64,000 nt of DNA from Tridacna crocea (taxonomy: Eukaryota; Mollusca; Bivalvia; Cardiida; Cardiidae). Within the stretch, counting starts at the first letter, position 1. Each line of letters begins with the position of its first letter. Location: NCBI GenBank assembly GCA_943736015.1, contig OX031065.1, positions 32,812,427 to 32,876,426 on the forward strand, written 5' to 3'. Positions 3,917 through 63,282 of this stretch are shown one piece after another. A program made the position numbers and the translations under genes. The notes under the pieces were generated by a model. It had not been told where the DNA came from, ran no database searches, and saw nothing but the letters and a program-made list of their open reading frames with translations.

Positions 3917-4145
3917 TTAACCCATTACCACACAATCCCTACTTTTGACGCCCCGGAGAAAGAAGCCTTTTGAAAACACTGTGGGAAAAGGAGAAAATGC
4001 TGGTAACCAGCATTTTCTCCTTTTCCCACAGTGTTTTCTACCCTTCCCAGACCAAATTTCAATTTTTCAGTCACCTTTATTTTGTTGTCTGCAAATGCTT
4101 TCAATTTGAACCAGTCTGAAATTTTGTCGTGTGGTAATGGGTTAA
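3917..4145 (+). repeat. T-MITE A, full length, best reference copy
   Basis: 229 bases from TTAA to TTAA. Terminal inverted repeats are near perfect over about 18 bases (TTAACCCATTACCACACA). The palindrome arms both carry the CACTGTGGG variant (CCCACAGTG on the other arm). Confidence 0.95.
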
Positions 4146-4249
4146 ACCCTTGCTTTCAAATCGTTAGATTTTCTAAACATTGAATATGCTTGTAAAACAT
4201 GAATAAAACCTTAAGTTAATCTGAGATTTTGCAACAACCTAGAGAAGTA

Positions 4250-4318
4250 ACGCATGGTACCCATTAAACCCATTAACCCATATATGCATGGTACCCATTA
4301 ATGCATTTAACCCATGGT
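4250..4318. repeat. Short tandem of ATGCATGGTACCCATTAA-like units
   Basis: GCATGGTACCCATTAA occurs twice with AACCCATTAACCCAT spacers, a local duplication of about 30 bases. Confidence 0.6.
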
Positions 4319-4359
4319 AGGTTTAAGGTCTCATCCAAAAGACTTTCTAATAATTTTAG

Positions 4360-4450
4360 ATGACCAGCTGTGGAAATCAAACCCACAACCTTAGGTGGCC
4401 TTGCATTTGAAATTCGTGTATCATGCTCTAACACCTGAGATACTGGGTAG
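4360..4450 (-). repeat. tRNA-derived SINE head, worn
   Basis: On the - strand, TATCTCAGGTGTTAGAGCAT resembles a pol III A box and GGTTTGATTTCC a B box about 45 bases on. The acceptor stem does not close, so it is not a tRNA gene. Confidence 0.45.
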
Positions 4451-4540
4451 TCAAAGGGTTAAAGGTTATTTTAAGAAGCAAAAGTTGCTACATTTCCTAC
4501 AGTGCTTTCCATTCTTTTGTAAACGTACTCTTTCCTTTTA

Positions 4541-4880
4541 GCTCACCTGAGTACAGTGTGCTGTAGGGGAGTTTTTAGGATCAGGCTGTGTCCGTTGTTT
4601 GTCGTGCGTTGTCCTTCGGCTGTCTTCAACGATTTCTTTAAACATCTCCTCCTTAACCACTGGGCTGATTTGAACCAGTCTTGGCTGAAATGTTCCTTTG
4701 AAAGTCCTCTTCAAAATTGTTTACAAAAATTGATTCCATTAAAAACTCTGGTTGCCATGGCAACCAAATAGAATGTTCTAAAATTTTTTTTAAAGATCTT
4801 CTCCTTGGGTGACCCTTTCCAAAAATTGTTTCTGCCAAATTTTGATCTGTCTAGAAACATGGCTGTGATGGGACGGGGCT
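4541..4880 (+). mobile_element. Helentron-like element, 5' part only
   Basis: Starts TTTTAGCTCACCTGAGTACA and soon has GGGGAGTTTTTAGGATC, as does the element at 42784. It runs through AAAACTCTGGTTGCCATGGC, shared with the elements at 24257 and 43955. No 3' hairpin terminus is found. Confidence 0.6.
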
Positions 4881-4904
4881 ACTTTCATTATACGGACATG
4901 AAGA

Positions 4905-5015
4905 AATTCTTAAAAGTTCCTCTTCTAAGAAGAAGACTTTTGAAAACAGTTTAGTGGCAAATAGAGAAAATGCTGGCAACTTGTATTTTCCCTGTCTATG
5001 GCATTGCTGTCTACC
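4905..5015 (+). repeat. Degenerate T-MITE fragment
   Basis: CTTTTGAAAACAG...GAGAAAATGCTGGCAACTTG matches the left half and centre only. Confidence 0.4.
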
Positions 5016-5032
5016 TGTCACACATCTTTGAT

Positions 5033-5590
5033 CACTACGTGGATCTTACCTCGGAGGATCAGCCTGATTTTGAGATTCCCGTGACATGCCCCTTTTTGGA
5101 TGCTGCTTATTATCTCCCTTTACATCATATTTCTTATAGCCAATGAAATATCATTTTACAAACGGCTTACGAATACAATAATTCAACATGAAGCAATAGC
5201 CGCAAACATACTTCGACATTCCATGGTCAGGTGCTGGGATATAGCCTAAAACATCTGATAATTGATTGGTCTCATAGAAACTTTATGTAAATATTGTTTG
5301 TTTATGTTTTCTTCTGTAATAAATCATTACAGATTCTGCACACGTCCACAAAGGTATTCATGTTTACCTTCTATTTTTATCACGACCCAGTTCTATTTTT
5401 ATAAAAGATGAAATGCTACAAGCGATTTGATTTGATGCAGTAAGAGCTAGCTGCAACAGATGAAAATGCAATTGGGTGATCGTCAAAATCAAGCTCAATC
5501 AGCCAAGGGTAAGGTAGTGTAGTGGATTGTAAGCCTTGGCTTGCAAAGATGCCTGTCACAAGTCATATAAAATTATTGAAGACACATTTA
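5033..5590 (+). repeat. Unclassified ~560-base interspersed repeat, copy 1
   Basis: Shares most of its length with 7327-7935, for example GGATCTTACCT.GGAGGATCA, CATTCCATGGTCAGGTGCTG and AATAAATCATTACAGAT. No open frame is kept between the copies. The last part (GGTAGTGTAGTGGAT) looks like a worn tRNA A box. Confidence 0.7.
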
Positions 5591-5729
5591 ATGGTCTGTC
5601 TGTAAAAATCTCAGAATGAAGTAGTCTCAAGTTGTGTCGTCTGGTTGAGAGATTATGTTGAAATTAGTCTAGAAAACAGTTTCAGCTATATGTTGTTGCT
5701 TGGATCTATGGAAATGAGCCATGGTCTGT

Positions 5730-6055
5730 TTAACTCTTTATCAAACGACAAAACTTTGGATTGGTCCAAATTGAAAGCACTTGCTGACGAGAAAATAAAC
5801 GTAACTGAAAAACTGAAATTTGTTTCCAGCAGGGTAGAAAACATTGTGGGAAAAGGAGAAAATGCTGGTTACCAGCATTTTCTCCTTTTCCCACAATGTT
5901 TTAAAAGGTCTTTGAAATTTGATTTGGGAAGGGAAGAAAACATTGTGGGAAGAGGAGAAAATGCTGGTTACCAGCATTTTCTCCTGTTCCAGCCATGTTT
6001 TCAAAAGATTTCTTTCACAGAGTTGTTAAAAGTCGGGACTGTGAAGTAGACTTAA
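5730..6055 (-). repeat. T-MITE A with two central palindromes
   Basis: Left and right termini flank two successive palindromes, at about 5837-5902 and 5936-6003. They are separated by a repeat of the internal segment GAAATTTGATTTGGGAAGGG. It is one element with an internal duplication, or a fusion of two copies. Confidence 0.85.
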
Positions 6056-6651
6056 AAGGTTCTAATGCACCTGCAAGAAACTCAAACCTGATCAGCCTGT
6101 GCAGTCTGCTAAGGTGACTTTGATTGAAACTTTACTATTGATAAATTTTCTGCAGTGCATGATCATGGACCACTCTACCTTATAATCAGTTGATTGTCAA
6201 ATTAAATGGAATTGTAGATCTGTAACAATGATTGCAATGCATCACAGCAATGCATAAAATACCCGATTGACAAAAATAATTACTCAAATGTGACAGGTCA
6301 CACATTAAGGGACAATCTGGGAATTCTGTACATTAATTAGATAAAAACAGGTCAACCATAGTGCAGGTCAATTTAAGTTGATAGTTAAAGAATAATTGTA
6401 TAATAAGTTAGAATGGCCACTTTTCATACTGACAATATCATAAAAGCAAAAAGTGTCATTCTTAGTCAACCTGTGCAATTCATGCAGTCTGACCAGAATT
6501 GACTCTGTTTGCAGTTCCTAGAAAGTTCCTTTTTGCATGTCGTGTCACAAATGTGTTTGGTTGGATAAAAAAATCCTTATCATTTATTTATTAGATTATG
6601 GGTTCCTTTAATCTCTCCAGGCTAGGGAAATACTGCTAACTATTTCATCTT
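6056..6651. other. No gene or clear repeat seen
   Basis: AT-rich sequence. Short stretches (CTGATCAGCCTGTGCAGTCT at about 6090) resemble half of the ~60-base palindrome family. Confidence 0.6.
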
Positions 6652-6951
6652 TTAACCCTTTACCACACAATCCCTTCTTTTGACGACCCTGAGAAAGAAG
6701 CCTTTAGAAAACAAGGTGGGAAAAGGAGAAAATGCTGGTAACCAGCATTTTCTCCTTTTCCCACAATGTTTTCTACCCTTCACAAAATAAATTTCAAATT
6801 TTCATTCACTTTTATTTTGTCATCTGCAAATGCTTTCGATTTGGACAAGCCTAAAATATTGTCAGAGTATTACAGAGTACCAGTTGTTTCACCTTTCCCA
6901 CACTTTTTTCCAGAGGGTCATTAAAATATCATCTTGTTTGATAAATGGTTA
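6652..6951 (+). repeat. T-MITE A, right end replaced by part of another copy
   Basis: A good + copy runs to about 6862 (AAAATATTGTC). It is then followed by a - strand end fragment (TTTCCCACACTTTTTTCC... to GATAAATGGTTAG) instead of its own terminus. Confidence 0.75.
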
Positions 6952-7202
6952 GTGCAATATGGCTATGTTCATAAGAATTCCTTATAAAACCCAAGCTTTA
7001 AATTCTAAGACTAGATGAATGACTTGCTGAGACATGGTTGCTCAGTCTATTAGGAGTCCTAAACCTTGGAAAATAGGAGTAGAGCAATATTTAGAATTGT
7101 TGCTGAGTATGATGTCTGGACCTGTATTCACAAACTGTTCAACATAATATTCTAAGACTACTTGAATCTTGCCCTTGCTCTGTGATAAATGAGACCTGTG
7201 AC

Positions 7203-7935
7203 TTACAGGTAGGGATGGGTATTGCCAAGAATTCCAACACTGTGATACATTACAATATTTCAATTCACATTGCTGATATCTTGCAATATATTGCCAGTTA
7301 TTTTCATAGCATCTTCGCGAGCCAAGGTTACAATCGCTGCGTGGATCTTACCTTGGAGGATCATGCCCGATTTCGATATTCCCACAATACGCCCCCTAAT
7401 GGATGCTGGTTATTATCCCTCTTACATCATATTTCTTATAGCCAATGGAATAGCGTTTTACAAACCGCTTATGAATACAATAATTCAACATTAAGCAATA
7501 ACCACAAACATACTTTGACATTCCATGGTCAGGTGCTGGGATATAGCCTAAAACCTCTGATAATTTATTTGTCACACTGAAACTTTCTGTAAATATTGTT
7601 TGTCTGTGTTCTTTTTTTTGGTAATAAATCATTACAGATCCTGCACACATCCATGGAGGTATCCGTCTTTAATCCTCCTATTTTTATCTGAAAGGTCGCC
7701 GTCTTGTTCTATTTTTACCAAAGGTAAAATGTTACGAGTGATTTGATACAGTGCAGCTAGAGCTAACTGCAACCAATGAAAATGCATATGGGGTGATTGT
7801 CGAAATCAAGCTCAATCCGCCAAGGGTAGAGTAGCGTAGTGGCTCGTGACCCTTGGCGTGCGATGATGTTTTCCTAGTAGATAGAAGAAACTGAAGAAAT
7901 CATATGAAAAAAATAGATATTGGTATAATGGATGG
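7203..7935 (+). repeat. Unclassified interspersed repeat, copy 2, with hAT-like start
   Basis: From 7327 it matches 5033-5590. It extends further left to TAGGGATGGGTATTGCCAAG, like the outer end of some hAT elements, but no matching inverted end is found on the right. It is probably truncated and non-autonomous. Confidence 0.55.
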
Positions 7936-8257
7936 TTAGAGAGCCCTCATTTGTGCAGCTGGGTTACTAGTTCCACTGCTGTATTCCATCGATTGCATGC
8001 AAGATTTGTAGACGGCTGCATTTTCAACCAAATGATAATTTTTTTTTTCAGTTCAAAGAATTTCCTGATCTGTGCTTTTCCCATTTTACTGGGAACAGTT
8101 TCAAAATCTGGCATGCTTGTTGCCATGTTTTGTTTTGGTACAGAAATTTGAAATAAAATGTAGACTGATAGACAAAACATGTACTTTGGATGGTGGTTTC
8201 ATCCAGAGATAAATAATAATATAAAAATTCATAAAGCACAATCTGGAAATTTTGCGG

Positions 8258-8351
8258 AAAAGTAGAATCTTTTCTCCTTTCTCAACACTGTTTTCATTTG
8301 TCCTTCTGCTGAATGTTGTTAAACATGGGATTGTTTGGTAAAGGATTTACT
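8258..8351 (-). repeat. T-MITE A end fragment
   Basis: Right half of a - copy: TTTCTCCTTTCTCAACACTG to GGGATTGTTTGGTAAAGGAT. Confidence 0.6.
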
Positions 8352-8490
8352 AAGGCATTATAATGTGCTAGACTTACAAAGAAATCTAGATAATCATTAG
8401 CGATCACCTTGCAAATCCACTGGGTATAGAAAGTCTCTCTATACAAATAGCAGTATCCATCATCCATAGAATAACTCTTCTTCTTCTTCG

Positions 8491-8716
8491 CTAACTCATT
8501 ACCAAACGACAAAGTTTTAGGTTTGTCCAGATGGAAAGCATTTGCAGACGACAAAATAAAAGTGAATGAAAATTTGAAATTTGTTTTGTGAAGGGCAGAA
8601 AACATTGTGGGAAAAGGAGAAAATGCTGGTTACCAGCATTTCTCTTTTTCCCACAATTTTTTCTAAATGCTTCTTTCTTAAGGTTGTCAAAAGTAGGGAT
8701 TGTGTGGTAATGGGTT
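8491..8716 (-). repeat. T-MITE A, nearly full length
   Basis: Starts CTAACTCATTACCAAACGAC (first base of TTAA changed) and ends GGTAATGGGTTAA. One palindrome arm has lost a base. Confidence 0.9.
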
Positions 8717-8799
8717 AACCATTTTATTCTTCTTTGCTCAGCCTCTCCAAAGAAAGTGTTTATTGGTAGATGTCATGAAGTTTTTAAGCTCTAACCAAC

Positions 8800-8975
8800 G
8801 ATTCAGTTTTATTGAAGGCTATTGAAAACATGGTGGAAAAAGTAAAGAAAGCATTTTTTTTTCCATTTTCTGCGATGATTTATACCCTTTTAAGGACAGT
8901 TCCAATCATTTGACTCTTATCTTATTTGATGTCCGCAAATATTTTGAGTTTGGACCAGTCTTAAACATGGCCCGT
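8800..8975 (+). repeat. Degenerate T-MITE
   Basis: Centre AAAACATGGTGGAAAAAG and right segment TTGGACCAGTCTTAAA are recognisable; the termini are lost. Confidence 0.5.
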
Positions 8976-9950
8976 CCGACTTTGGGACGAAAATGTTGCA
9001 AAAATAAAAAAAAGTCATCCATATAATCCCAAAGCCTATTAATTTTCGTTCATAAAACCCAAATAGTCGAAAACCATCCAACTACAGGAGAAATTAGAGA
9101 TTTACTACGGCCCAGGTTGACTCCGACGGGAAACGTGGTCTATTTTTACATGGGCAACTGGCTCATTTACATACTGGAAATACACACGATGAAGCTTCAA
9201 ACATAGCGTCCAAAGAAGACATTATGGAAAATATTTACATGTTTGTTATGTTATGGAATTTAAGCATTATTAGTCACATGCCAGTCATTTGACATTCCTG
9301 ACATTGCTTTTTTGATTTCTGGCGCAAAATTTAAAAATAACTTAAGAGGCTAAGTAGCCTTTTTTAGTGAACACCATCAATTTTTTTTATGTTGTAATTT
9401 TATGGTTCTTAATTATTGATGATTTGTTTTGTTTTTCATATAAGTTTCATTGATATATATATATTTTTTAATTTGGTGAGATGTGAAAAATCTAAATACC
9501 CACCTTTAAATCAAGATTAAAACATTGTAAGTAAAACTGTTACAATTCTCATTAGGCGTGACTGTTTTTCATTTTCTATCGTACCAATGTTTTTTTGTCA
9601 AAGTATAGCGGCAGAGAAGGCAAAACATACAAACAGAATTCATGACAAATATCACTCTATCCTGTTATCGCTATTGTACATACAAGGTCGAGTTCAACTG
9701 CTTTCCTTTTAACTATCTTCTTTTTACTTTTTTGTTTGTGAATATATTTATTTCAATAAAAAATTATTGCAAATGAAAGAGTCGCACACTTTTTGCGCTT
9801 GCTTGAACATGACAATGGTAAAAAAATCTGAAGCCTTGCAGCATGTGTTGTGAGTGAATAGTTGACCTTTATAATTTAGTTATGCCTCAGCAAAAGGGGG
9901 ATCATTGCATCTCCGTACTAAGCAAGCCTTCACATTCTTATAACTCCTTA
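8976..9950. other. No gene or clear repeat seen
   Basis: AT-rich; a slightly GC-richer patch lies at about 9090-9190. No frame of note and no match to the other repeats of the window. Confidence 0.6.
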
Positions 9951-9954: not shown

Positions 9955-11401
9955 CCCCTTTGTTCACTCACCAAGCTATTTTGATCGTGTTTTTTCCGTT
10001 CTGCATTGTGCATCATCAACTTTTTACTTCGTGAGTAGGCTTTAGAGGCCACATTTTCAGTCCAATACTCATGAAACTTGTTTGGAATGTTTGTCTTGAT
10101 AATATCTTATATTTGTATGAAAATGGGTGTTGTACGATAAAAAAAACTTAGGTCAGTGGGTCAAATCTCTGAAAAACCTTTTGTAATGAAAAACCTTGTT
10201 TCATTATCATTTGGCCTTGAACCTTGATATTTGGTATTTATCTTTATTTTAGACCTTCACTGCTTAAGTACTCTGGTGAGCAACATAAGACCCCCATCAT
10301 GGTCCTCCTGTTTGTCCAATACTCTTAGATGTTTGCCAGAATGTTTGGCTTGATGATATCTAAAATTGGTTTGAAAATGGGCCCTGTTGGATCAAACACT
10401 ATCTTACTAGGTCAAATCTGAGAAAAACTTTGTGTAAGCTCCAGAAACCACATTTTCAGTCCAGTACTCATGAATATTGGTAAGAATGTTTGTCTTGGTG
10501 ATATTTCGGACGAGTTCCAAAATGGGCCATGTTGGGTCAAAAACTAGGTCATTGAGTCAAATTTTAGAAAAACCTTGTGCACACTCAAGAGGCATCAATT
10601 AGTCCAATGCTCTCGGATGTTGGTCATCATGGTTGTAATATGATAGCTTGAATAAGTTTGAAAATGTGTCGTGTCAGGTCAAAAACTTAAGTCTCAGGTG
10701 GAAATCTTAAAGAAAAAACTTTTGTCTGCTCTAGGGGCCACATTTTAAGTCCAGTAATCTTGAAATTTAGTCAGAATGTTTATCTTGATGATGTCTTACA
10801 TTTGTATGAAAATGGGTGTTGCAGGATTGAAAACTGGGTCAGTGGGTCAAATATCTGAAAAAAACTTTTGTACAGACTAGAAGTTACATTTTGAGTCATA
10901 TTCTTTAAACTTGGTCAGAATGTTTGACTTGATGACATTTTGCATGAGTATGAGGTCATGTGGAATAAAAAAACTAGGTCACCAGGTTTAATCCTTGAAA
11001 AAACCTTGTGAACACTCTAGAGGCCAAATTTTCAATCCAATAATCTTCTAATTTTGTTAGAATGTGTGTCTTGATAATATCTTAGACTATTATGAATTTA
11101 TGTCATGTTGGAAATAAAAACTAGGTCACTAGGTCAGATCTAGGAAAAACCTTCTGTAAACCCTTCAGGCCACATTTTCTCTCCAAGTTTGTCAGAATGC
11201 ATGTCTGGATAGTTTCTACATGTCAATTAGGCAGCTGAAAAAGCATGTGTGCAATCTTAAGATGCCATAATTGTAAGTCCAATCCTACTGATTGTCTGTC
11301 AGAATGTTTGTCTTGGTATCTCTGAAGAGATCAGAAATAGGTCATGTTTGATCAAAAGGCTTAATTAAGTGATTTCAGGGCTATCGTGGACCTCTTGTTT
11401 A
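9955..11401 (+). mobile_element. Helentron-like element with ~145-base tandem units (type T), worn 5' end
   Basis: Worn 5' end (TCACCAAGCTATTTTGATCG, GCATCATCAACTTTTTAC). About nine diverged units follow, with ...GTCAGAATGTTTGTCTTGATGATAT... and ...AAAACTAGGTCA...GGTCAAATCT.... It ends GTGATTTCAGGGCTATCGTG then GACCTCTTGTTT. More diverged than the array at 31527-33533, so probably older. Confidence 0.75.
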
Positions 11402-11582: not shown

Positions 11583-11811
11583 TTAACCCATTACCACTCA
11601 ATCCCTACTTTTGACGCCCCTGAGAAAGAAGCCTTTTGAAAACACTGTTGGAAAAGGAGAAAATGCTGGTAACCAGCATTTTCTCCTTTTCCAACAGTGT
11701 TTTCTACCCTTCCCAGAAAAAAATTCTATTTTTCAGTCACCTTTATTTTGTCGTCTGCAAATGCTTTCAATTTGGACCAGTCCAAAATTTTCTCGTGTGG
11801 TAATGAGTTAA
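11583..11811 (+). repeat. T-MITE A, full length, GTTGG/CCAAC arm variant
   Basis: 229 bases. The palindrome at 11638-11702 has CACTGTTGG on the left and the exact complement CCAACAGTG on the right. Confidence 0.95.
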
Positions 11812-12178: not shown

Positions 12179-12407
12179 TTAACCCATTACCAAATGGCAA
12201 TATTTCAGACTGGTCCAAATTGAAAGCATTTGCAGATGACAAAATATAAGTGACTGAAAATTTTAAATTTGTTTTGCGAAGGGTAGAAAACATTGTGGGA
12301 AAAGGAGAAAATGCTGGATTCCAGCATTTTCTCCTTTTCCCACAATGTTTTCTAAAGACCTCTTTCTCAGGGGCGTCAAAAGTAGGGATTGTGTGGTAAT
12401 GGGTTAA
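12179..12407 (-). repeat. T-MITE A, full length
   Basis: 229 bases, TTAACCCATTACCAAATGGC to GGTAATGGGTTAA. The centre reads GGATTCC instead of GGTTACC. Confidence 0.95.
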
Positions 12408-13370: not shown

Positions 13371-15413
13371 AGCTCACCTGAGCACGAAGTCCTCAGTGAG
13401 CTATTGTGAGCTTTTGTGATCACTCACCGTCCGTTTGCGTACATTGTCCGTCCGTCCATTCACATTTCCTTTGTTTACAATTTTAGCATCTACAAATATC
13501 AACCAATCATCACCAAACTTGGTCAAAATATATATGATCATAGATCTAGGATGAATTAGATTATGGGTCTAATGTGACCAGAACATCTGGAGTTATTTGC
13601 CCTTGAATTAGAAAAATTGCCACATACCACTTTGTTTACACTGTAGTATCTAAAAATATCAACCACTTAGTACTTAACTTGGCCAAAATATATCATTATC
13701 TCCCGCTAGATGGCATTCTATAAATACTCATCTATCTGATATGGGCATCCTGGGTACAGAACCGAACCACTTTCCTACGCCACAAGCGTTACTTTGAATT
13801 TAAAACAAAAAAAGGTTTACCCAATAAAATGCTACCTCGTGCAATTGACTCAACTATGATCACCGGTTTAGAGAAATCTGGAGCTAAAGCAGGTCTCATT
13901 TCTCCTCAAACGTATTGATACGTAAAAGCTATTTTCAACATTGCTACTTTATAGAGCGTAATATTACAGTCAGCCCGCTTTCAGGGCTAGTAGTGATGCG
14001 TCATATAAGACAGTGGAATCTTTGAAGAATATGACATGCGCAGACAATGCAAAATATATATGACTATAAGATCTTGGATGAGTTTGATTATGGGTCTAAT
14101 TGGGCAAGAATGACTGGAGTTATTTGCCCTTGAATTAGAAAAATTGCTATGCTTCACTCTGTTTACACTCTAGCATCTACAGTTTTTAAACAATCAGCAA
14201 TAAACTTGGCCAAAATATAATAACAATAAGATCTTGGATGGGTTGGATTATTGGTCTAATCCTATTAGAATGACTGGAGTTATTTGCCCTTTAAGTAGAA
14301 AAAAAAAATGATAAATGACTTCATTTATACTCCAGCATCTACAATTTTTAAACAATCGGCACCAAACTTGGTCAAATATACATGACGATAAGATCTTGGA
14401 TGAGTTCAATTATGGGTGTAATCCGACCAGAACAACTGGAGTTATTTGCCCTTGAATTACAAAAATTGCTATATTTGACTTTGTTACACTCTAGTATCCA
14501 CAAATATCAACCAGTCAGTACCAAAATTGGTCAAACCATTATGACTGTAAGATCTTGAGTTCGATAATTGATGTACTCAGACCAGAACAACCGGAGTTAT
14601 ATGCCCTTGAATTAGAAAGTTCTGTAGAATAGTTCTTAGTCTGGACCATAACTTCGTCATCTCCGATTGACTTGAAGCTTGGCATTTGTGTTTGTTGCAA
14701 CAATACAGACTGCAGTGTGAAAGAAGCGTAACTCTACCTCATACTATTTATGATTTATTTCCCTTTGATCATCATTTTTACAGTATTTTCTGCTCATCTT
14801 GAATATAACTTTGTCATCTACAGCCTGAAATCTTCAAATTTGATACGCATGATTGTTGAAAAATTATGGAGTGCAGTGCACAAGTACTATAACTCTTCCT
14901 TGCACAAATTTTGACTTATTCCACCTTTGACCATCATTCTTATAGCATTTCTTGCTTGTCCGAAGCAAAACTTTGTGATATTTGTAGGAATGTCTTGAAA
15001 TTTGATATTCTTATCTGTTGCAATATTTAGAAGTGCAGTGCACAAGAAATGTAACTCTACTTTGTGCCGTCTTTCAGTTATTTCTCTTTGAATGTCATTT
15101 CTTCAGCATTTAGTGCCTGTCTGGAATATAACTTTATCACCTCAAGTTAGAACGACTTAGTACTTGGTATGCATGTTTGTTGCAATATTACGGACTACAG
15201 TATGCAAGAACAGTAACTATACCTAGTACGGATTTTGAGCAATTCCACTTTGATCTTCAATTTTACAGTACTTCTTGTTTGTCCAGAACAAAACTCAAAG
15301 TCTCAAGTCAAATTGCAATAATTTGGTGTTCTTGTTTTCTTGATCTTTATTTTAGAGCTTTACTGCTTGGTACTCAGGTGAGCGATATAGAACCATCATG
15401 GTCCTCTTGTTTT
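13371..15413 (+). mobile_element. Helentron-like element with two different tandem arrays (X then Y)
   Basis: Begins AGCTCACCTGAGCACGAAGT (5' hairpin) and ends CTCAGGTGAGCGATATAGAA, CCATCATGG, CCTCTTGTTT. The first half has ~150-base X units (AACTTGGTCAAAATATAT, GGAGTTATTTGCCCTTGAAT). From about 14635 the units are type Y, as at 1540-2275. A 356-base TIR element is nested at 13694-14049. Confidence 0.85.
13694..14049 (-). mobile_element. 356-base TIR element, copy 1, with 9-10-base target duplication
   Basis: Ends CATTATCTCC and GCAGACAATG are imperfect inverted repeats. CAAAATATAT flanks it directly on both sides, and removing one copy restores an X unit of the host array. No coding capacity. 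A 9-10-base duplication suggests a Mutator-like or similar non-autonomous element (inference). Confidence 0.85.
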
Positions 15414-23961: not shown

Positions 23962-24190
23962 TTAACCCATTACCACACAATCCCTACTTTTGACGCCCCT
24001 GAAAAAGAAGCCTTTAGAAAACACTGTGGGAAAAAGAGAAAATGCTGGTAACCAGCATTTTCTCCTTTTCCCACAATGTTTTCTACCCTTCACAAAACAA
24101 ATTTCAAATATTCAGTCACTTTTATTTTGTCGTCTGCAAATGCTTTCATTTTGAACCAGTCTAAAATTTTGTCGTGTGGTAAAGAGTTAA
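23962..24190 (+). repeat. T-MITE A, full length
   Basis: 229 bases, TTAACCCATTACCACACAAT to GGTAAAGAGTTAA. The arms mismatch once: CACTG on the left against CAATG on the right. Confidence 0.95.
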
Positions 24191-62700: not shown

Positions 62701-63282
62701 CCAAGACATAAACCATGTATTCTCTGTATTTTGTAACTCTTTACCACAAGATGAAATACTGAATTGACCAAAATCAAAGCATTTAATGCAGACAAAAAAA
62801 ATACCGGTATAATGTAACTCAATTGGTGCTATGTCTTCTTAGAGAGGGTAGAAAACATTGTGGGAAAAGGAGAAAATGCTGATTAACTCTTTACCACATG
62901 ACAAAATTTTAGACTGGTTCAAATTGAAAGCATTTGCAGATGACAAAATAAAGGTGATTGAAAAATTGAAATTTGTTCTGGGAATGGTAGAAAACACTGT
63001 AGGAAAAGGAGAAAATGCTGGTTACCAGCATTTTCTTCTTTTCCTACAGTGTTTTCAAAAGGCTTCTTTCTCAAAGGCGTCAAAAGTAGGGATTGTGTGG
63101 TAATGGGTTAAAAGCATTTTCTCCTTTTCCCGCAATATTTTCAAAAGTTGTCTTTCTTCAGGGCTGTTAAAACTTTCGATAGTGTGGTATGGGGATAAGG
63201 CCTAACTATGAAATATTTACAGGTGATTGTATATTCCAATTTATTTCAGCAAGCAGCTGCTGCAAAACCTACACAGATTGAG
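26684..63282 (+). CDS. TRPC-family cation channel, 14 spliced exons (whole gene model)
   Basis: Joined exons give one open frame of 786 codons: 26684-26755, 33936-34094, 35316-35807, 42526-42702, 45801-45965, 49688-49842, 50984-51102, 52073-52212, 53425-53524, 54929-55080, 57405-57559, 59791-59989, 61768-62007 and, tentatively, 63250-63282. All introns are GT-AG and the phases fit. The product should be a plasma-membrane, non-selective Ca2+-permeable channel subunit working as a tetramer downstream of phospholipase C (family knowledge). Residue map: ankyrin repeats about 29-170, zinc motif H175/C179/C181/C184, pre-S1 elbow about 331-350, S1 367-386, S2 433-456, S3 472-490, S4 541-560, S5 577-600, pore loop 633-652, S6 663-688, TRP box from 701 (EWKFAR). 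From memory the ankyrin region looks closest to vertebrate TRPC3/6/7 (AVGNEHLEV, RPHxY-like, LSLSSxDPxLTA), but the pore (FWSLFGRGDP) differs. The stop codon is not in view, so the 3' end is open. Confidence 0.93.
26798..27024 (-). repeat. T-MITE A in intron 1, near full length
   Basis: Begins 42 bases after the exon 1 donor. TTAACTCTTTACCAAACAAC to GTGTTAAAAGGTTAA. Confidence 0.9.
27021..27216 (-). repeat. T-MITE A lacking one palindrome arm, TTAA shared
   Basis: TTAA at 27021-27024 is common to both neighbours. After ATGCTGGTTACCAG the sequence jumps to GCTTCTAAAGGCTTC. Confidence 0.85.
27323..27552 (-). repeat. T-MITE A, full length, mutated ends
   Basis: CTATCCCATTACCAAACGAC to GGTAATGGGCTAT; the palindrome is complete. 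Confidence 0.9.
27620..27850 (+). repeat. Unit Z tandem fragment
   Basis: CCATTTCAAGTTGAAA occurs at about 27657 and 27807, with GTGAAACTTGCACAGTTTGT and AAAATCCAACAAACAGTATG between, as in the array at 55150. Confidence 0.65.
28095..28305 (-). repeat. T-MITE, worn, matched CTAGG/CCTAC-type arms
   Basis: The left terminus is lost; the centre AACATTCTAGGAAAAG pairs roughly with CTTTTTCCTACACTGTTTTC. Confidence 0.6.
28421..28633 (+). repeat. T-MITE A, short right side
   Basis: TTAACCCTTTACCACACAAT to GGTAAAGAGTTAA, 213 bases; a segment near the right end is missing. Confidence 0.88.
28630..28832 (-). repeat. T-MITE, degenerate, TTAA shared with previous copy
   Basis: TTAATTCTTTACTAAACCAT and GAAAGCATTTGCAGATGACA are clear; the right half fades. 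Confidence 0.6.
28833..29927. other. No supported gene; possible retroelement 3' end at 29795-29910
   Basis: 28850-28955 holds a worn T-MITE centre. A lysine-rich 88-codon - strand frame (29273-29539) coincides with low-complexity TTTTCC repeats and is not convincing. 29870-29910 has AAAATAAAATTTGTTCTG followed by (TTCTG)n, like a LINE tail. Confidence 0.4.
29928..30228 (+). repeat. T-MITE A, interrupted or rearranged
   Basis: 29928-30052 is the left part. About 40 unrelated bases follow, then the centre starts again (GGTAACCAGCATTTTCTCCA at about 30099) through the right half to TTTTGTCATTTGC. Confidence 0.75.
30327..30555 (-). repeat. T-MITE A, full length
   Basis: 229 bases, TTAACTTTTTACCACACGAG to GGTAATGGGTTAA. 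A tandem-unit element remnant follows at once. Confidence 0.95.
30556..30911 (+). mobile_element. Helentron-like element, 3' part (type T units)
   Basis: About two units, then CTCAGGTGAGCGATTTCAGA, CCATCATGG and CCCTCTTGTTTC. The units match 33230-33480 closely, including TCTCAAAAGAGTTTGATAAT, so it is a deletion relative of the 31527-33533 element. Confidence 0.8.
31196..31402. repeat. ~200-base foldback element, best copy
   Basis: CCCGTATTCACCAACCATTC ... GAATGGTTATTGATTACGAA at the ends, and CTGATTGGCTAAACCA / TGGTTTAGCCAATCAG at the centre form one long imperfect hairpin. Confidence 0.85.
31527..33533 (+). mobile_element. Helentron-like element with ~13 tandem 145-base units (type T)
   Basis: 5' end AGCTCACCTGAGCAC-GAA-GTGCTCATGGTGAGCT is a 15-16-base hairpin with one bulge. 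About 13 units follow (GTTGGTCAGGATGTTTGTCT, CAAAAACTAGGTCACTAGGT), the middle ones very alike. A variant pair (CAGTTAGA at 31930 and 32220) recurs at 290 bases, showing dimer amplification. The end is CTCAGGTGAGCGATTTCAAG, then GCCATCATGGCCCTCTTGTT. Lies in intron 1 of the TRPC gene. Confidence 0.9.
33601..33864 (+). repeat. T-MITE B, chimeric left end
   Basis: Opens with an inverted right end (TTAACCCTTACCAAATGATG...AACATTTGCA), then joins the B left interior (GCCCTGGTTTTCACGTGTCT). The B palindrome at 33693-33757 is perfect. Ends GGGAAGGGGTTAA. Confidence 0.88.
33936..34094 (+). CDS. TRPC exon 2, ankyrin repeats 1-2
   Basis: 53 codons, residues 25-77, after a ttgatttcag acceptor and before a GTTAGT donor; both ends phase 0. 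It encodes FIYAAEFGDIPTVQKIL and LGRTPLRLAVGNEHLE, the helix pairs of the first ankyrin repeats. AVGNEHLE is a stretch I recall from TRPC3/6/7. A subfamily B T-MITE ends 71 bases upstream. Confidence 0.95.
34243..34895. repeat. Three degenerate T-MITE pieces
   Basis: 34243-34388 and 34590-34690 keep parts of the centre. 34700-34895 is a worn - copy with GGGATTGTGTGGTATAAAGG at its end. Confidence 0.5.
34894..35074 (-). repeat. T-MITE A, palindrome almost wholly lost
   Basis: TTAACTCTTTACCAAACGAC to GGTAAAGGGTTAA with only AAAACATTTTGTTTTC at the centre: 181 bases. Confidence 0.88.
35071..35281 (-). repeat. T-MITE A, one arm shortened, next to exon 3
   Basis: Shares TTAA at 35071 with the previous copy. 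The left arm is cut to AAAACATTTTACGG; the right arm is complete. Ends 34 bases before the exon 3 acceptor. Confidence 0.88.
35316..35807 (+). CDS. TRPC exon 3, ankyrin repeats 2-4 and zinc motif
   Basis: The largest exon, 164 codons, residues 78-241, between a cttctcacag acceptor and a GTAAGT donor, phase 0 at both ends. It holds the rest of the ankyrin domain (VVELLLDR, ITPLILAAERNQFEIVQLLL). It then has HHYYCNCQEC, whose H175-C179-C181-C184 spacing matches the HCCC zinc site of TRPC channels, and LSSNDPILTAFELARELR of the linker helices. T-MITEs lie 34 bases upstream (- strand) and 83 bases downstream (+ strand), in opposite orientation. Confidence 0.97.
35891..36119 (+). repeat. T-MITE A, full length
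   Basis: 229 bases, TTAACTCCTTCCCACACAAT to GATAAAGAGTTAA. The GTTGG variant is loosely matched by CCAAT. Confidence 0.92.
36120..36310 (+). repeat. T-MITE, degenerate, directly after the previous copy
   Basis: GGACCCTGAGGAAGACAGCT to ATTAAGGGAAGGATTAA; order and spacing fit, the centre is unrecognisable. Confidence 0.5.
36497..36546. repeat. (GA)n microsatellite
   Basis: About 50 bases of GA with GGGAGA and GTGAGT interruptions. Confidence 0.95.
36919..37090. repeat. ~200-base foldback element, worn second copy
   Basis: GATCCATATTCCCCAACCA, CTGATTGGCTAAACAAAATG, AAGCCAATAAGATAT and GGGAATGGTTGTGAACAAGG follow the order of 31196-31402. Confidence 0.65.
37175..37683 (+). repeat. T-MITE A split by a SINE
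   Basis: 37175-37390 has the left end, centre and right segment to AAAAATTTTGC. About 37654-37683 is the right terminus (TGTGTGGTAACAGGTTAA). Between them lies a SINE. Confidence 0.85.
37391..37653 (+). mobile_element. tRNA-derived SINE, ~265 bases
   Basis: GGTGGCTCAGTGGTGAGCAT (A box) and GGTTGTGAGTTCGATACCCG (B box) form the head. The body runs through CACCGACCGCCATGATATGA, and the tail is TTAAAGTGGCGTTAAACTCC followed by AATACAACCAACCAACTAAA. AAATTTTGC and AAAGTATTGC at the edges may be a worn target duplication. Confidence 0.85.
37680..37903 (-). repeat. T-MITE A, worn right end, TTAA shared
   Basis: TTAACTCTTTACCACAAATA to GTATGTGGTAAACTG; arms ATCCTGGGAAAA / TTTTCCCATAATG partly matched. 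Confidence 0.78.
38031..38242 (-). repeat. T-MITE A, moderately worn
   Basis: ACTCTTTACCACATGAAGAA to GGGATTGTGTGGTAAAGAGT, ending in the TTAA the next copy shares. Confidence 0.8.
38239..38656 (+). repeat. Two fused T-MITE A copies in tandem
   Basis: 38239-38448 lacks its right terminus and 38449-38656 lacks its left terminus; both are + and each has a full palindrome. This is what unequal recombination between tandem copies would leave. Confidence 0.85.
38657..39071. other. No gene or clear repeat seen
   Basis: A C-rich stretch (CCCCACCCCATACCCCCACA) at about 38670 stands out; otherwise unassigned. Confidence 0.5.
39072..39287 (-). repeat. T-MITE A, moderately worn
   Basis: Starts TTCAACTCTTTACCACATGA; the centre reads GGTTACCACC; ends GTTGTAAAGAGTTATT. 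Confidence 0.8.
39288..39703. other. No gene or clear repeat seen
   Basis: Intronic AT-rich sequence. Confidence 0.5.
39704..39932 (-). repeat. T-MITE, full length, A centre with B-like ends
   Basis: 229 bases, TTAACCCTTTCCCAAACGAC to GGAAAGGGTTAA; GACGACAATTCAACTCTTGC matches the mosaic copy at 17573 in reverse. Confidence 0.92.
39933..40884. other. No gene or clear repeat seen
   Basis: Intron 3 sequence, AT-rich, no open frame of note. Confidence 0.5.
40885..41112 (-). repeat. T-MITE A, mutated loop
   Basis: TTAACTCTTTACCAAATGAC to GGTAAAGAGAAAT; the centre reads ATGCTCTTCACAAGCAT. Confidence 0.85.
41113..41453. repeat. Two degenerate T-MITE pieces, one with a ~45-base insertion
   Basis: 41113-41225 is the left half of a - copy. 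41236-41453 is a worn + copy, with TAAAGAGCCGAGCCTTGCTA inserted before its right end. Confidence 0.55.
41454..42436. other. No gene or clear repeat seen
   Basis: Intron 3 sequence before exon 4. CCAATCAGATAGCTTTTCTT at about 41940 faintly recalls the ~200-base foldback family. Confidence 0.5.
42438..42495 (+). repeat. T-MITE left-end fragment before exon 4
   Basis: TTAACCCTTTATCACACAAT then GCCGACTTGGAACAAC; the rest is lost. Confidence 0.6.
42526..42702 (+). CDS. TRPC exon 4, linker helices
   Basis: 59 codons, residues 242-300, between cgttacag and GTAAGA, phase 0. It encodes TEYLELADQLSVYVVKLLDK through LARLKLAIQYNEKK, matching the linker-helix segment that ends in the family's LAIxYxxKK. 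A fragment of a T-MITE left end lies about 35 bases before the acceptor. Confidence 0.95.
42784..43593 (+). mobile_element. Helentron-like element, GGGGAGCTTTTAGGATC family
   Basis: Starts TTTTAGCACAACATGCTCAA, GGGGAGCTTTTAGGATCC and ends ATCCAGGGCGATCTTGGCCC then TGTTGTTT (3' hairpin GGGC-CGATCTT-GGCCC, worn). Internal units have CAAACTTGGCTGGAATGTTC. It shares its 5' module with 4541-4880. Confidence 0.75.
43955..45190 (+). mobile_element. Helentron-like element, AGCTCCACTGGC family, ~5 tandem units (V)
   Basis: Begins AGCTCCACTGGCTGAAGGTG. Units of about 155 bases repeat AAGGCCTAGGGCTACCAAAT and GTAGCTTTATCTAGTGGACC. The end is AGCCAGTGGAGCGATACAGG then GCCATCATGGCCCTCTTGTT. The 5' CCACTGGC is matched by GCCAGTGG near the 3' end. 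Confidence 0.88.
45338..45566 (-). repeat. T-MITE A, full length, CATGG/CCATG arm variant
   Basis: 229 bases. The palindrome at 45446-45510 is perfect over 32 bases per arm with one central base; its CATGGTGGG is matched by CCCACCATG. Confidence 0.96.
45801..45965 (+). CDS. TRPC exon 5, linker end and pre-S1 elbow
   Basis: 55 codons, residues 301-355, after a long T-rich tract and acag, before GTAAAA; phase 0. FVAHSSCQQKLVSIWYSDL corresponds to the near-invariant FVAHxxCQQxLxxIWY block of TRPC proteins. The hydrophobic run TLLVFAITFGYPIMCLLYLV is the pre-S1 elbow. Confidence 0.96.
45984..46570 (+). repeat. Worn T-MITE interrupted by an ATACCCCC element
   Basis: 45984-46096 is the left half (TACACAATCACTTG, GAGAAAATGCTGGTAACCAG). 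46440-46570 has another centre and right segment (AAATGCTGGTAAACAGTATT). The ATACCCCC element sits between them. Confidence 0.55.
46097..46431 (+). mobile_element. ATACCCCC-ended element, ~335 bases
   Basis: 5' ATACCCCCCACACTTGGTGG with GGAGGGTGTA folds back. The 3' side has GGTGGGGGGTATAATCAC followed by GTTTAGTGAT (hairpin ATCAC-GTTTA-GTGAT). ACCCCCCA / TGGGGGGT are subterminal inverted repeats. Same plan as the larger Helentron-like elements, with no array. Confidence 0.75.
46621..46654. repeat. ~60-base palindrome, half copy
   Basis: GGTGCAGTCTGATCTTAATC then TATGCTGGCC; the opposite arm is not present. Confidence 0.5.
46753..49636 (+). mobile_element. Helentron-like element, type T array, with nested 828-base TIR element
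   Basis: 5' AGCTTACCTGAGCACAAAGT hairpin, about 13 diverged 145-base units, then CTCAGGTGAGCTATTCAGGG, CCATCATGGCCCTCTTGTTT. Units are more diverged than at 31527. The 48537-49364 insertion breaks a unit near the 3' side. The terminus lies about 52 bases before TRPC exon 6. Confidence 0.88.
48537..49364. mobile_element. 828-base TIR element with CTTTG target duplication
   Basis: CAGGGTTTTCCC... and ...AAGGAAAACCCTG are inverted repeats. CTTTG at 48532-48536 and 49365-49369 flanks it, and removing one copy rejoins a T unit (CACTTTG/CCAAATCTGG). GGGGGTCATTGTGACCCCC is an internal hairpin near the left end. No transposase frame. Superfamily not assigned. Confidence 0.85.
49688..49842 (+). CDS. 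TRPC exon 6, S1 segment
   Basis: 155 bases, residues 356-406 plus two bases of codon 407, between attccag and GTAAGT (phase 2 exit). FIGHTMSFVAFLIMLLTSS is S1. The tail after it starts the extracellular S1-S2 loop. A Helentron-like element ends about 52 bases before the acceptor, and a T-MITE starts 21 bases after the donor. Confidence 0.95.
49864..50095 (+). repeat. T-MITE A, worn palindrome
   Basis: Begins 21 bases after the exon 6 donor. TTAACTCTTTACCACACAAA to GGTAAACAGTTAA; centre AATGCTGGTAACAAAATATT. Confidence 0.85.
50291..50521 (-). repeat. T-MITE A, worn left end
   Basis: ACACTTTACCACTTGAAAAA to GGTAAAGGGTTAA; palindrome ATCGTGGGAAAAG / CTTTTCCCACAATGT mostly intact. Confidence 0.85.
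50522..50983. other. Intron 6, no supported feature; GC-richer patch
   Basis: About 50740-50900 is less AT-rich (CTGCGCCCACGGCGGCTCCA, CACTGCAGCGCCTTCC) and looks like a worn unidentified insertion. No consistent reading frame continues across it. Confidence 0.4.
50984..51102 (+). CDS. TRPC exon 7, S1-S2 loop and start of S2
   Basis: 119 bases after a ttttttttcag acceptor and before GTAATG. The first base completes a Leu codon and the last base opens a Gly codon. Residues 408-446 begin NFTKDSP; NFT (408) and NQS (420) are N-glycosylation sequons in the expected extracellular loop. INLILSIWII starts S2. Confidence 0.93.
51298..51415 (+). repeat. T-MITE left half
   Basis: TTAACCCCTTTACCCTTTAC (internal doubling of CCCTTTACC) to GAGAAAATGCTTGTGAGCAG, then lost. 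Confidence 0.65.
51862..52034. repeat. ~175-base foldback element
   Basis: GAAATAATCTTCTTTCTATC at one end and GATAGGAAGAAGATTATTTC at the other. Inside, AATAAACCATGTTGTGAGTT, ATGAGGCA and their complements continue the stem to a loop at CTCGGGCTATCGCCC. It ends 38 bases before the exon 8 acceptor. Confidence 0.88.
52073..52212 (+). CDS. TRPC exon 8, end of S2 and S3
   Basis: 140 bases between gattgcag and GTGGGT, entering two bases into a Gly codon and leaving in phase 0. GMLWQELKQVY matches the GMxWxExK segment after S2 in TRPC channels. LDFTVLTLYITSFTLRFLTL is S3. Confidence 0.95.
52702..52923 (+). repeat. T-MITE, old copy at the head of a three-copy chain
   Basis: TTGACCCTTCACCAAAGAAT to GGTAAAGAGTTAA, heavily substituted; its last TTAA is the first TTAA of the next copy. 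Confidence 0.7.
52920..53148 (+). repeat. T-MITE A, full length, tandem member 1
   Basis: 229 bases. Its right half, including the private ACAAATTACAAATTTTCAGT and AAAATATTGCCGTTTGGTAA, is the same as in the next copy. Confidence 0.96.
53145..53373 (+). repeat. T-MITE A, full length, tandem member 2
   Basis: 229 bases, joined to member 1 by a shared TTAA; about ten differences between the two, all in the left half by eye. It ends 51 bases before exon 9. Confidence 0.96.
53425..53524 (+). CDS. TRPC exon 9, S3-S4 loop
   Basis: 100 bases after tgttcag and before GTAAAT (phase 1 exit). VQGALTYFKDPLHWSDLRNGEQLAEEQFYWLVA is split here only by position: residues 494-526, aromatic and acidic, the variable S3-S4 linker. 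It is the least conserved exon and is called mainly from frame and splice fit. A + strand T-MITE ends 51 bases upstream and a - strand copy starts 93 bases downstream. Confidence 0.88.
53550..53840 (-). repeat. T-MITE fragment then near-complete copy
   Basis: 53550-53617 is a left-end piece (TTACCAGTCAATAAAATTAT). 53618-53840 is a - copy with centre ATGCTGGTTTCCAGCAT, ending GGTAAAGGGTTAA. Confidence 0.78.
53837..54098 (-). repeat. Degenerate T-MITE pieces
   Basis: 53837-54035 opens at the shared TTAA and fades in the centre. 54037-54098 is a stray centre (GATGCTGGTAGCCAGTATTT). Confidence 0.55.
54100..54323 (-). repeat. T-MITE A with B-like right end
   Basis: TTAACTCTCTACCAAAGGAC to TTTTGGGAAAGGCTAA; CGTAAAAACCAGGGA follows the B/mosaic pattern. 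Confidence 0.85.
54478..54650 (-). repeat. Degenerate T-MITE
   Basis: TTCAGACTTATCCATGTTGA and the centre ACATTGTGAGAAAAAGAGAT ... TTTTCTCCTTTTCC are recognisable; the loop is replaced by GGATAATGATAATGA. Confidence 0.55.
54652..54880 (-). repeat. T-MITE A, full length, before exon 10
   Basis: TAAACTCATTACCAAATGAC to GGTAATCGGTTAA, 229 bases, one arm base changed. It lies 48 bases from the exon 10 acceptor. Confidence 0.92.
54929..55080 (+). CDS. TRPC exon 10, S4 and S4-S5 linker
   Basis: 152 bases between ttattatag and GTAATT. RLYWDSFDPHNIAEGLFAVA leads into NVISFTRLSYILPANELFGP, the S4 and linker signature (SFxRxxYILPANExFGP) typical of TRPC. A - strand T-MITE ends 48 bases upstream. Confidence 0.97.
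55150..55685 (+). repeat. Tandem array, unit Z (~155 bases), ~3.3 units
   Basis: Begins CCGTCGTCCGTCCATCTGTC. It then repeats CATGAAACTTGCACAGTTTG, TTATCTCATCA.TAGCTTTAACC, AATCCAACAAACAGTATGGG and AAAAGTAGCCATTTCAAGTT. The array ends at AAAGTCATGGTAGGGGCATT. No terminal hairpin of the CCATCATGG type. Confidence 0.85.
55686..56387. other. Intron 10; one ~60-base palindrome, otherwise unassigned
   Basis: 55822-55880 is a copy of the short palindrome (CAGTGTAGATGAAGATCATA ... TGCAGTCTGATCTTTAATCC). Nothing else is recognised. Confidence 0.55.
56388..56570 (-). repeat. T-MITE, worn
   Basis: ACTCTTCACCGTAGGAACAA; GAAAGCAGTTGCAGACATAC; the centre is shortened to ACATTGTGGCACAAGG ... CCTTTCCAACAATG. 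Confidence 0.6.
56764..56823. repeat. ~60-base palindrome copy
   Basis: GGACACTGTAGGTTAGAGAT ... AGCCTGATCTTGATCTACAA, directly before a T-MITE. Confidence 0.7.
56826..57055 (+). repeat. T-MITE A, full length
   Basis: 230 bases, TTAACCCATTACCACTCAAT to GGTAATGGGTTAA; AATGATTT for AATGCTTT near the right end. Confidence 0.95.
57145..57350 (-). repeat. T-MITE, worn ends, good palindrome
   Basis: Centre GGTTACCAGCATTTTCTCC with one arm CATTGTGGGAAAGTG; right end TATTGTGGGATAAGGGATT. Confidence 0.7.
57405..57559 (+). CDS. TRPC exon 11, S5 and outer pore turret
   Basis: 155 bases after tcatttag and before GTAAGC (phase 2 exit). DILKFGAVFSVVYSAFMVGL is S5 and its lead-in. HNLYWYYPKDVRKQVELVEN and what follows form a charged extracellular turret. 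A degenerate T-MITE ends about 55 bases upstream. Confidence 0.94.
57619..57749 (+). repeat. T-MITE B deletion derivative
   Basis: TTAACCCTTTCCCAAACAAG jumps straight into the right palindrome edge (GTGTTTTCTACCCGTTTTGA) and continues to TTGGGAAAGGGCTAA: 131 bases, no hairpin. Confidence 0.85.
57750..58152. repeat. Two T-MITEs, + then -, overlapping at a mutated TTAA
   Basis: 57750-57926 is a + copy without its left end. 57923-58152 is a - copy (TTGACCCTTTACCACAAAAC to GGTAAAGAGCTGA) whose arms share the GTTGG/CCAAC variant. Confidence 0.78.
58149..58315 (-). repeat. Degenerate T-MITE
   Basis: CTGAACCTCTTCCAAAAGAC and TATCTGCAGACAACAAATTC, then fading. Confidence 0.5.
58316..59270. other. 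Intron 11, no gene or clear repeat
   Basis: A short T-MITE centre remnant (GGAGAAAATGCTGGTTACC) lies at about 58878. A 67-codon frame at 58558-58761 has no family resemblance. Confidence 0.5.
59276..59345 (+). repeat. tRNA-derived SINE head, worn
   Basis: TTTAGCTCAGTGTTTATGGT (A box) and TAGGTTTGAATCCAGACC (B box) at tRNA spacing, without a closing acceptor stem. Confidence 0.5.
59412..59560 (-). repeat. T-MITE A with large internal and right deletion
   Basis: TCAATCCTTTACCACATGAC through the first arm and loop to ACCAGCATAGGGTTAAT, where the right half is gone. Confidence 0.75.
59791..59989 (+). CDS. TRPC exon 12, pore loop and S6
   Basis: 199 bases between ttttctacag and GTGATC, phase 0 exit. 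TFRTVFWSLFGRGDPNVVEL is the pore helix and selectivity loop (the LFW motif reads VFW). GYWIFGVYNICTVIVLLNML and IAMMSRSF form S6, with the LLNMLIAM sequence shared across TRPC. GRGDP in place of the more usual FGL-type sequence is notable. Confidence 0.97.
60128..60323 (+). repeat. T-MITE A, one palindrome arm lost
   Basis: TTAATCCTGTACCAGTCCCA to GGTAAAGAGTTAA; AAAACATGCAGTTTCTCCCT marks the deletion. Confidence 0.82.
60458..60677 (-). repeat. T-MITE A, loop region lost
   Basis: TTAAGTCATTACCAAACGAC to GGTAAAGTGTTAA; the arms GTTGGAAAAGG and CCTTTTCTCAC remain, the ATGCTGGT loop is deleted. Confidence 0.85.
60851..61080 (-). repeat. T-MITE A, full length, TTAA mutated
   Basis: CTGAACTCATTATCAAACGA to GGTAAAGGGTCAA, 230 bases. 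Confidence 0.9.
61176..61235. repeat. ~60-base palindrome, worn copy
   Basis: CAGTGTAAATCAAAGATCAG ... TGTGCAACCTGAACTTGGTC then CACACTGG. Confidence 0.6.
61273..61499 (-). repeat. T-MITE A, near full length
   Basis: TTAACTCTTTACCAAAGGAC to GGTAAAGAGTTAA, 227 bases; the last TTAA is shared with the next copy. Confidence 0.93.
61496..61723 (-). repeat. T-MITE A, full length, before exon 13
   Basis: 228 bases, matched CACTGTGGG/CCCACAGTG arms. It lies 44 bases from the exon 13 acceptor. Confidence 0.95.
61768..62007 (+). CDS. TRPC exon 13, TRP box and proximal C-terminus
   Basis: 80 codons, residues 696-775, after tttttccag and before GTACGG. EADTEWKFARSKLYMEY is the TRP box helix and LPIPFNIIPSPKTI the conserved proline-rich stretch after it. 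RCCCCGSGDED follows, a four-cysteine run that could be lipidated (inference). T-MITEs flank it in opposite orientation: - strand 44 bases upstream, + strand 167 bases downstream. Confidence 0.97.
62175..62400 (+). repeat. T-MITE A, worn right end
   Basis: TTAACCCATTACCACACAAT; right end TTTTTTCTGTAGGTAAAGTA. Confidence 0.88.
62401..62731. other. Small imperfect foldback around 62600-62720, otherwise unassigned
   Basis: ATGGTTTATATCTTGGATTG at 62601 and GATCCAAGACATAAACCAT at 62698 are inverted, as are TCAGGCCTGG and CCTGAT nearby: an imperfect hairpin of about 120 bases. Confidence 0.55.
62732..63200 (-). repeat. T-MITE split at its palindrome centre by another T-MITE
   Basis: 62732-62882 is the left half up to AATGCTGA; 63112-63200 resumes AAGCATTTTCTCCTTTTCCC and ends GTGTGGTATGGGGATAAGG. 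The break is at the loop. Confidence 0.88.
62883..63111 (-). repeat. T-MITE A, full length, nested, GTAGG/CCTAC arm variant
   Basis: 229 bases. The palindrome at 62991-63055 has CACTGTAGGAAAAG matched by CTTTTCCTACAGTG. Both TTAA ends are intact. Confidence 0.95.
63250..63282 (+). CDS. Possible TRPC exon 14 (33-base microexon)
   Basis: A tttatttcag acceptor precedes 63250 and a GTTATA donor follows 63282. Read in phase 0, as exon 13 requires, it gives QAAAAKPTQIE, in frame and without a stop. The evidence is only splice-site quality, phase and composition; I know of no conserved motif here. If it is not an exon, the C-terminus continues beyond the window. Confidence 0.4.

Follow-up and report, generated by a model that had tools for sequence, protein, structure and literature searches.

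The T-MITE element and its copies in the window

The window, a 64,000-nucleotide stretch of Tridacna crocea DNA, comes from a genome of 1.05 Gb in 31 contigs and is rich in copies of a 229-bp, TTAA-ended, piggyBac-like MITE, here called T-MITE, which has a perfect 67-bp palindrome as its core. The core is made of 33-nt arms flanking a single central A, and two cores, folded as DNA, give a 32-pair hairpin (-37.2 and -38.2 kcal/mol). Using a 229-column model, we found 103 non-overlapping matches in the window (18,928 bases). A sample of the genome, consisting of twenty 10-kb stretches at fixed places on contigs C1-C5, gave 199 matches (35,191 bases in 200 kb), or approximately one per kb; three of the stretches contain none, and the other 17 have between 1 and 26 matches each.

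TTAA is found at the start of 95 and at the end of 94 of the 99 full-length copies. The bases that follow the TTAA at the left end are CCCA, CCCT or CTCT, depending on the class; at the right end, read inward, they are CTCT or CCCT in the class consensus and CCCA in some copies. The terminal inverted-repeat motif described for piggyBac-type MITEs is CC[C/T]T (PMC2872659). Short length and high copy number, as in piggyBac-type MITEs, are both seen in T-MITE, and its inverted-repeat sequence, for reference in comparisons with the ends of piggyBac-like genes, is TTAACCCWTTACC. A CACAAT word common to the inverted repeat and the arms was set aside as likely due to chance. The piggyBac transposase domain PF13843 has 118 matches genome-wide, the ten best of which lie in open frames of 491-668 aa. 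Many of the transposase matches have long open frames, and several score identically; given the long-framed matches, a source of transposase seems to be present in the genome.

The first-pass annotation had named five arm variants that occur as exact complements on the two sides of the palindrome. All five are in the window as such, at coordinates a few bases narrower than those first given, and the mismatched arms reported for the copies at 26345-26573 and 23962-24190 were borne out. These cores and copies, with the arm pairs that distinguish them, are as follows.

3917-4145, forward strand: T-MITE copy with a CACTG/CAGTG core and perfect arms (palindrome 3972-4038)
11583-11811, forward strand: T-MITE copy that belongs to the young CACTGTTGG burst, with its 67-bp palindrome at 11638-11704; CACTGTTGG/CCAACAGTG exact complements at 11643-11699
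12179-12407, reverse strand: T-MITE copy in which both arms are changed at pair 1 (GGAATCC centre); flank neighbours lack the change
16381-16411, forward strand: GGTGAAATT/AATTTCACC stem, exact complements at 16381-16411, mismatched towards the centre
18865-18931, forward strand: the window's other B-loop core; GAAATTGCTCGT/ACGAGCAATTTC exact complements at 18886-18910, one mismatch further out
23962-24190, forward strand: T-MITE copy with mismatched arms, CACTG versus CAATG
26345-26573, reverse strand: T-MITE copy with mismatched arms, CATTGTGAG versus CCCACAGTG
33692-33758, forward strand: core of the B-loop subfamily, differing from the commonest core at pairs 3, 8 and 26 on both sides; GAAATTGCTCGT/ACGAGCAATTTC exact complements at 33713-33737
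45338-45566, reverse strand: T-MITE copy changed on both arms at pair 25 (CATGG/CCATG), with its palindrome at 45445-45511; CATGGTGGG/CCCACCATG exact complements at 45450-45506
62883-63111, reverse strand: T-MITE copy with CACTGTAGG/CCTACAGTG (pair 22) and, at pair 14, a change that is unpaired (palindrome 62990-63056); CACTGTAGG/CCTACAGTG exact complements at 62995-63051

Two of the five variants stand in stems that are mismatched elsewhere (62991-63055, at pair 14; 16381-16411, towards the centre). At 2606-2738 and 35071-35203 the window also has T-MITE copies that apparently lack all or part of the palindrome.

Ancestry of the arm variants

Some of the variants belong to single lineages. 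The CACTGTTGG copy at 11583-11811 matches 39 other places with 99-100% identity over approximately 212 bases (39 scored of 1,893 candidates), and this variant is a young burst. The B loop marks a flank-defined cluster of 12 copies in which pairs 3, 8 and 26 are changed on both sides. A group of three copies (L009_1236, L018_2145 and L030_2008) is changed at pairs 3, 8, 13 and 20, and its members have in common an unpaired right-arm change at pair 21. At pairs 3, 8, 13 and 20, the paired changes in the B loop and in this group are all base-pair flips (G-C to C-G or A-T to T-A).

The carriers of CATGG are more scattered. We fetched 20 of the 146 and used the 19 with enough flank (L078 was left out); their flanks differ by a median of 27% and a minimum of 8%. 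Together with the window copy, these 20 elements show seven left-by-right combinations of flank class, some assigned from partial flanks. Flank clustering of the carriers was not significant (12 of 100 nearest neighbours versus 6.4 expected, a value reached in 25 of 300 random draws), and their mean nearest flank distance of 0.178 lies at the close end of the random values (0.216; range 0.171-0.262). CATGG was present in none of 20 right-flank relatives of the 45338 copy (fetched from 39 scored; one without the left arm). The flanks of two carriers, L084 and L086, differ from those of 45338 by only 5-7%, so that 45338 may belong to a small carrier clade. The CATGG variant thus either originated on several occasions or was passed from element to element, and some of its carriers may form such a clade with 45338. 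The paired changes of 45338 and 12179 are not common to their near flank neighbours.

Left and right flank classes of T-MITE reassort (columns 0-54 and 122-228; left class 1 occurs with right classes 26, 20 and 5), flank sites are only weakly linked (mean r2 0.02-0.04), and on alignment the subfamilies look like mosaics. Because of the mosaic flanks and low linkage, an independent origin of CATGG and its exchange between elements are indistinguishable. The alternative first put forward, that each variant is simply a distinct old subfamily, is half borne out: it describes the CACTGTTGG burst and the B-loop cluster, but the CATGG/CCATG carriers extend over many flank types.

Two explanations draw on these observations. 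According to one, a few paired changes, made by chance or by rare copying, were spread by bursts and recombination, with no selection for symmetry. The CACTGTTGG burst, the B-loop cluster, the reassorting flank classes with their low linkage, and the position of the CATGG carriers at the close end of the random distances all agree with it; overall, we consider it rather unlikely, for reasons that appear when clusters are compared. According to the other, a polymerase switches template within a hairpin or cruciform at replication and copies one arm onto the other (quasipalindrome or template-switch mutation). This would account for carriers that hardly cluster by flank and fall into seven class combinations, for the lack of CATGG in the fetched relatives of 45338, and for paired changes (45338, 12179) that are absent from near neighbours, although the closeness of L084 and L086 to 45338 counts against it. 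Overall, we consider arm-templated repair unlikely.

Paired and one-arm changes compared with chance

For tests against chance, 473 non-overlapping matches were reduced to 436 at 35 bits or more and to 317 by a coverage and identity filter; leaving out 46 arm-selected copies and removing near-identical ones (flank distance below 2%) gave 262. L001, which is the same place as the window, was dropped. Changes were scored relative to flank neighbours, and shuffles (n = 200) were stratified by divergence.

Paired complementary arm changes number 97 in the 262 copies, versus 59.5±6.7 expected, with none of 200 shuffles as high. Without pairs 22 and 26 there are 73, versus 49.4±6.9 (0 of 200), and when the three-copy group is removed as well there are 62, versus 49.0±5.8 (3 of 200; 259 copies). 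With the same exclusions, the 195 copies that have at most eight arm changes show 18 paired changes, versus 12.0±3.2 (13 of 200). The first-pass annotation had looked to a large excess of double complementary changes as support; an excess is present in the full set, but it is concentrated, and what is left without pairs 22 and 26 and the three-copy group is small. An excess throughout the arms, which template switching would be expected to give, was not found; the excess is strong at pairs 22, 25 and 26, and weak when summed over the rest. As a separate observation, pairs 21-26 change 2-4 times more often than other arm sites (0.076 versus 0.018-0.034 per site) and hold most of the paired variants.

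Doubles at mated positions exceed plain independence both when complementary (73 versus 30) and when non-complementary (55 versus 36), and doubles at slid mates occur at 1.2-1.7 times chance. Since these last two types are also above chance, part of the paired excess reflects uneven age. A Poisson fit of the paired counts gives a chance multiplier of 2.1 (1.6-2.6), with the excess tracking the product of the one-arm frequencies, and a copying term of 0 per one-arm change (bootstrap upper limit 0.003, or 0.3%). If the multiplier is fixed at 1.5, as the non-complementary doubles indicate, arithmetic leaves approximately 18 paired changes, or 1-2% of the one-arm changes, of which the 259-copy set has 1,045. 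Steady arm-templated repair in resident copies accounts for at most 1-2% of arm changes. The proposal of one-arm-templated repair as a standing process in resident copies is not supported by these 1,045 one-arm changes beside an excess of approximately 13-18 paired ones, and by the counts at pair 6 given below.

Two other counts were rejected. Nearest-neighbour pairs by flank distance (64 pairs) gave 29 paired, 44 double non-complementary and 314 one-arm changes, but were too coarse and included arm-selected copies. A count of unshared changes (125 paired versus 62.9) was inflated by arm-selected neighbours, to which pairs 22 and 26 owed 34 apparent changes.

Genome-wide counts of exact cores

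Exact 57-base cores were counted over the whole genome, with left and right defined relative to the central A and not to the flanks. At pair 25 (T to G), 34,027 cores are unchanged, 490 are changed on the left only, 520 on the right only and 146 on both arms. Under independence approximately 12 two-arm cores would be expected, or about twice that if copy ages are evenly spread (by arithmetic), and this twelve-fold excess speaks in favour of copying from arm to arm. The two-arm share is uneven, which copying would not predict: it is 146 of 1,156 changed cores at pair 25, whereas pair 6 (G to T) has three two-arm cores versus 101 left-only, or approximately 1.5% if right-only cores equal left-only ones. 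At pair 22 (G to T, in CACTG cores), there are 292 left-only and 166 right-only cores; the 205 two-arm cores were counted by a longer pattern, so that this number is not comparable with the one-arm counts and no expectation can be derived from it.

The one-arm forms at pair 25 are five times as numerous as the 101 at pair 6, which suggests that one-sided cores may multiply too. The near-equality of 490 and 520 fits crossovers between two-arm and unchanged cores, as expected under ancestry and exchange; equal mutation of the two arms fits as well.

Arms and flanks in multiplying lineages and in resident copies

Copies were clustered by flank sites. Eight clusters had at least five copies, and clusters 10, 33 and 34 are outside the consensus comparison. 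When the consensus sequences of five clusters and the burst copy are set against one another (15 comparisons), the flanks differ at 10-47 of 162 sites (up to 29%), whereas arm differences are confined to pairs 3, 8, 22 and 26 and occur every time on both arms. Copies of the largest cluster are polymorphic at pair 26 (consensus below 60%). Selection for a hairpin, the other process that had been suggested for the matched arms, or restoration of the palindrome agrees with these multiplying lineages, whose consensus arms differ by paired changes only; it does not agree with clusters 33 and 34 (five copies each), in which pair 22 has an A on the left arm and no matching change on the right, as a clear majority in one and a weak one in the other.

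Cluster 10 was considered as a burst of an unpaired core and ruled out, because its members are T-MITE remnants that lie within the units of an approximately 1.67-kb tandem repeat. In that sampled stretch (L011, C1:25000001-25010000), six such tandem units run from 1279 to 9624, each with the identical T-MITE remnant and its mismatched arms.

These comparisons bear on all of the alternatives. Spread by ancestry and exchange, with no selection for symmetry, leaves unexplained both the all-paired arm differences between the larger clusters, at four positions, and the conservation of arms beside unconserved flanks. Arm-to-arm copying matches arms without slowing their change, as constraint would, yet from one of the larger clusters to the next the arms have hardly changed. 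A third possibility, that the palindrome is recent, with no special process and no time for decay in the sources, would be in keeping with the abundance of exact cores (34,027). It is very improbable, because clusters with perfect cores differ at up to 47 of 162 flank sites, a divergence far beyond what would disrupt a neutral palindrome, provided that no cores passed between elements.

Resident copies show a different pattern, in which the arms change but do so more slowly than the flanks. For disjoint nearest copy pairs, arm and flank differences per site are 0.025 and 0.033 (3 pairs) and 0.057 and 0.073 (9 pairs), and among more distant pairs they are 0.058 and 0.125 (10 pairs), 0.085 and 0.179 (8 pairs), and 0.189 and 0.264 (27 pairs). 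Changes not shared with neighbours amount to 0.037 per arm site versus 0.062 per flank site and are lower for every base (108 copies), and the distance to the cluster's own consensus is 0.044-0.048 for arms versus 0.105-0.111 for flanks. We read the slower arm change as probably due to flank subfamilies left unsplit; core exchange would give the same pattern. Resetting of old arms, suggested by an arm/flank rate correlation of only 0.07 (108 copies), was set aside, since arm change grows with flank distance over the whole set and flank subfamilies seem the simpler explanation. Because arms mostly change together between families and mostly one-sidedly in single copies, steady repair within a copy is not the main cause of their matching.

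The central base

Relative to the flanks, the central base (model column 88) is A in 216, T in 23, G in 10 and C in 3 of 252 copies, with gaps in 10 more. A to T (23 of 252, or 9.1%) is approximately 3-4 times as frequent as at arm A/T sites (median 2.3%), and A to G and A to C occur at ordinary arm rates. The excess is suggestive of a possible spacer inversion, which template switching in a hairpin would give. The centre is, however, not a unique outlier, as comparable flips occur at pair 8 (9.6 and 8.3%), position -26 (8.1%) and position -1 (7.1%). T-centred copies are also no richer in paired changes (9 of 162 versus 109 of 1,058), which argues against arm-templated repair.

Proposed explanation

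We put forward, tentatively and as possible rather than probable when taken as a whole, an account in which constraint acts on the core wherever a lineage multiplies, and in which a broken palindrome is mostly made whole by two successive changes, with template switching as a rare contributor. In multiplying lineages, as the larger clusters indicate, the core would be constrained for sequence and, mostly, for two-fold symmetry. After insertion, the arms gather changes mostly on one side at a time, as the resident copies show. A two-arm variant would again be a whole palindrome, which could multiply and so reach many copies, and most one-arm variants would be post-insertion damage. The second change would usually be a separate mutation and sometimes, perhaps, a template switch in the hairpin. 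Symmetry might be of benefit through a cruciform that joins the ends, or as a two-fold protein-binding site used in transposition.

In its simple form, this account of constraint and two-step restoration has to contend with one-arm variants in hundreds of copies, with the mosaic flanks and with the slow decay of the arms. The one-sided pair 22 of clusters 33 and 34 and the unpaired pair 21 of the three-copy group also go against it. Moreover, given the mosaic flanks, one core may have passed between elements, in which case the arms could look conserved.

A variant that we regard as doubtful is that symmetry is renewed during transposition, when a hairpin state of the excised or copied element would let one arm template the other and mostly perfect palindromes would be passed on, and that residents are left alone. 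If true, renewal at transposition would explain the matched source cores, the one-sided decay of residents and the flipped centres.

Comparison with known systems

The CMITE families of the coral Acropora are small elements with TTAA duplications and piggyBac-like ends (family I left end CCCTTTCCC...), and their internal region, described as more conserved between families than the ends, has been suggested to have a role in transposition (PMC2872659). They resemble T-MITE in the TTAA, the piggyBac-like ends and the conserved internal region, as far as the published family descriptions go (PMC2872659). They differ in being approximately 100 bp long, and "palindrom-", "hairpin" and "secondary structure" are absent from the paper's wording (PMC2872659); its account of the families does not describe arm covariation of the kind seen in T-MITE (PMC2872659).

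Mutations by template switching are reported to build new hairpins or repair existing ones (PMC8794818), and in yeast the homogenisation of arms is reported together with inversion of the spacer (PMC8604942). T-MITE is like the systems outlined in these reports in its two-arm complementary changes and possible spacer flip; it is unlike them in that the share in residents is small and uneven by pair, and in that the arms are also constrained in sequence (PMC8794818, PMC8604942).

Among the titles that it listed, a literature search gave no report of arm covariation in a MITE palindrome, which is not proof of absence. The T2-MITE family of Xenopus targets TTAA. It is a long-lived MITE family with recent activity, placed in the Kolobok superfamily by the title of the paper (PMC6004289). 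By its description, we liken it to T-MITE for its long life and recent activity, and it differs in its Kolobok assignment (PMC6004289).

A single palindrome that one genome repeats exactly tens of thousands of times (34,027 exact 57-mers) makes an unusually large natural experiment on mutation in hairpin DNA. T-MITE also separates two questions that are usually mixed, namely mending in residents, of which there is little here, and symmetry kept in multiplying lineages, which is largely the case here.

Other repeats in the window

The window also has arrays of an approximately 145-bp tandem repeat at 31609-33487, 46848-48228 and 10048-11324, with copies 60-97% alike. The longest among the inverted pairs listed is at 13799-14047 and 18998-19246, with arms of 249 nt that are 94% complementary and lie 4,950 nt apart.
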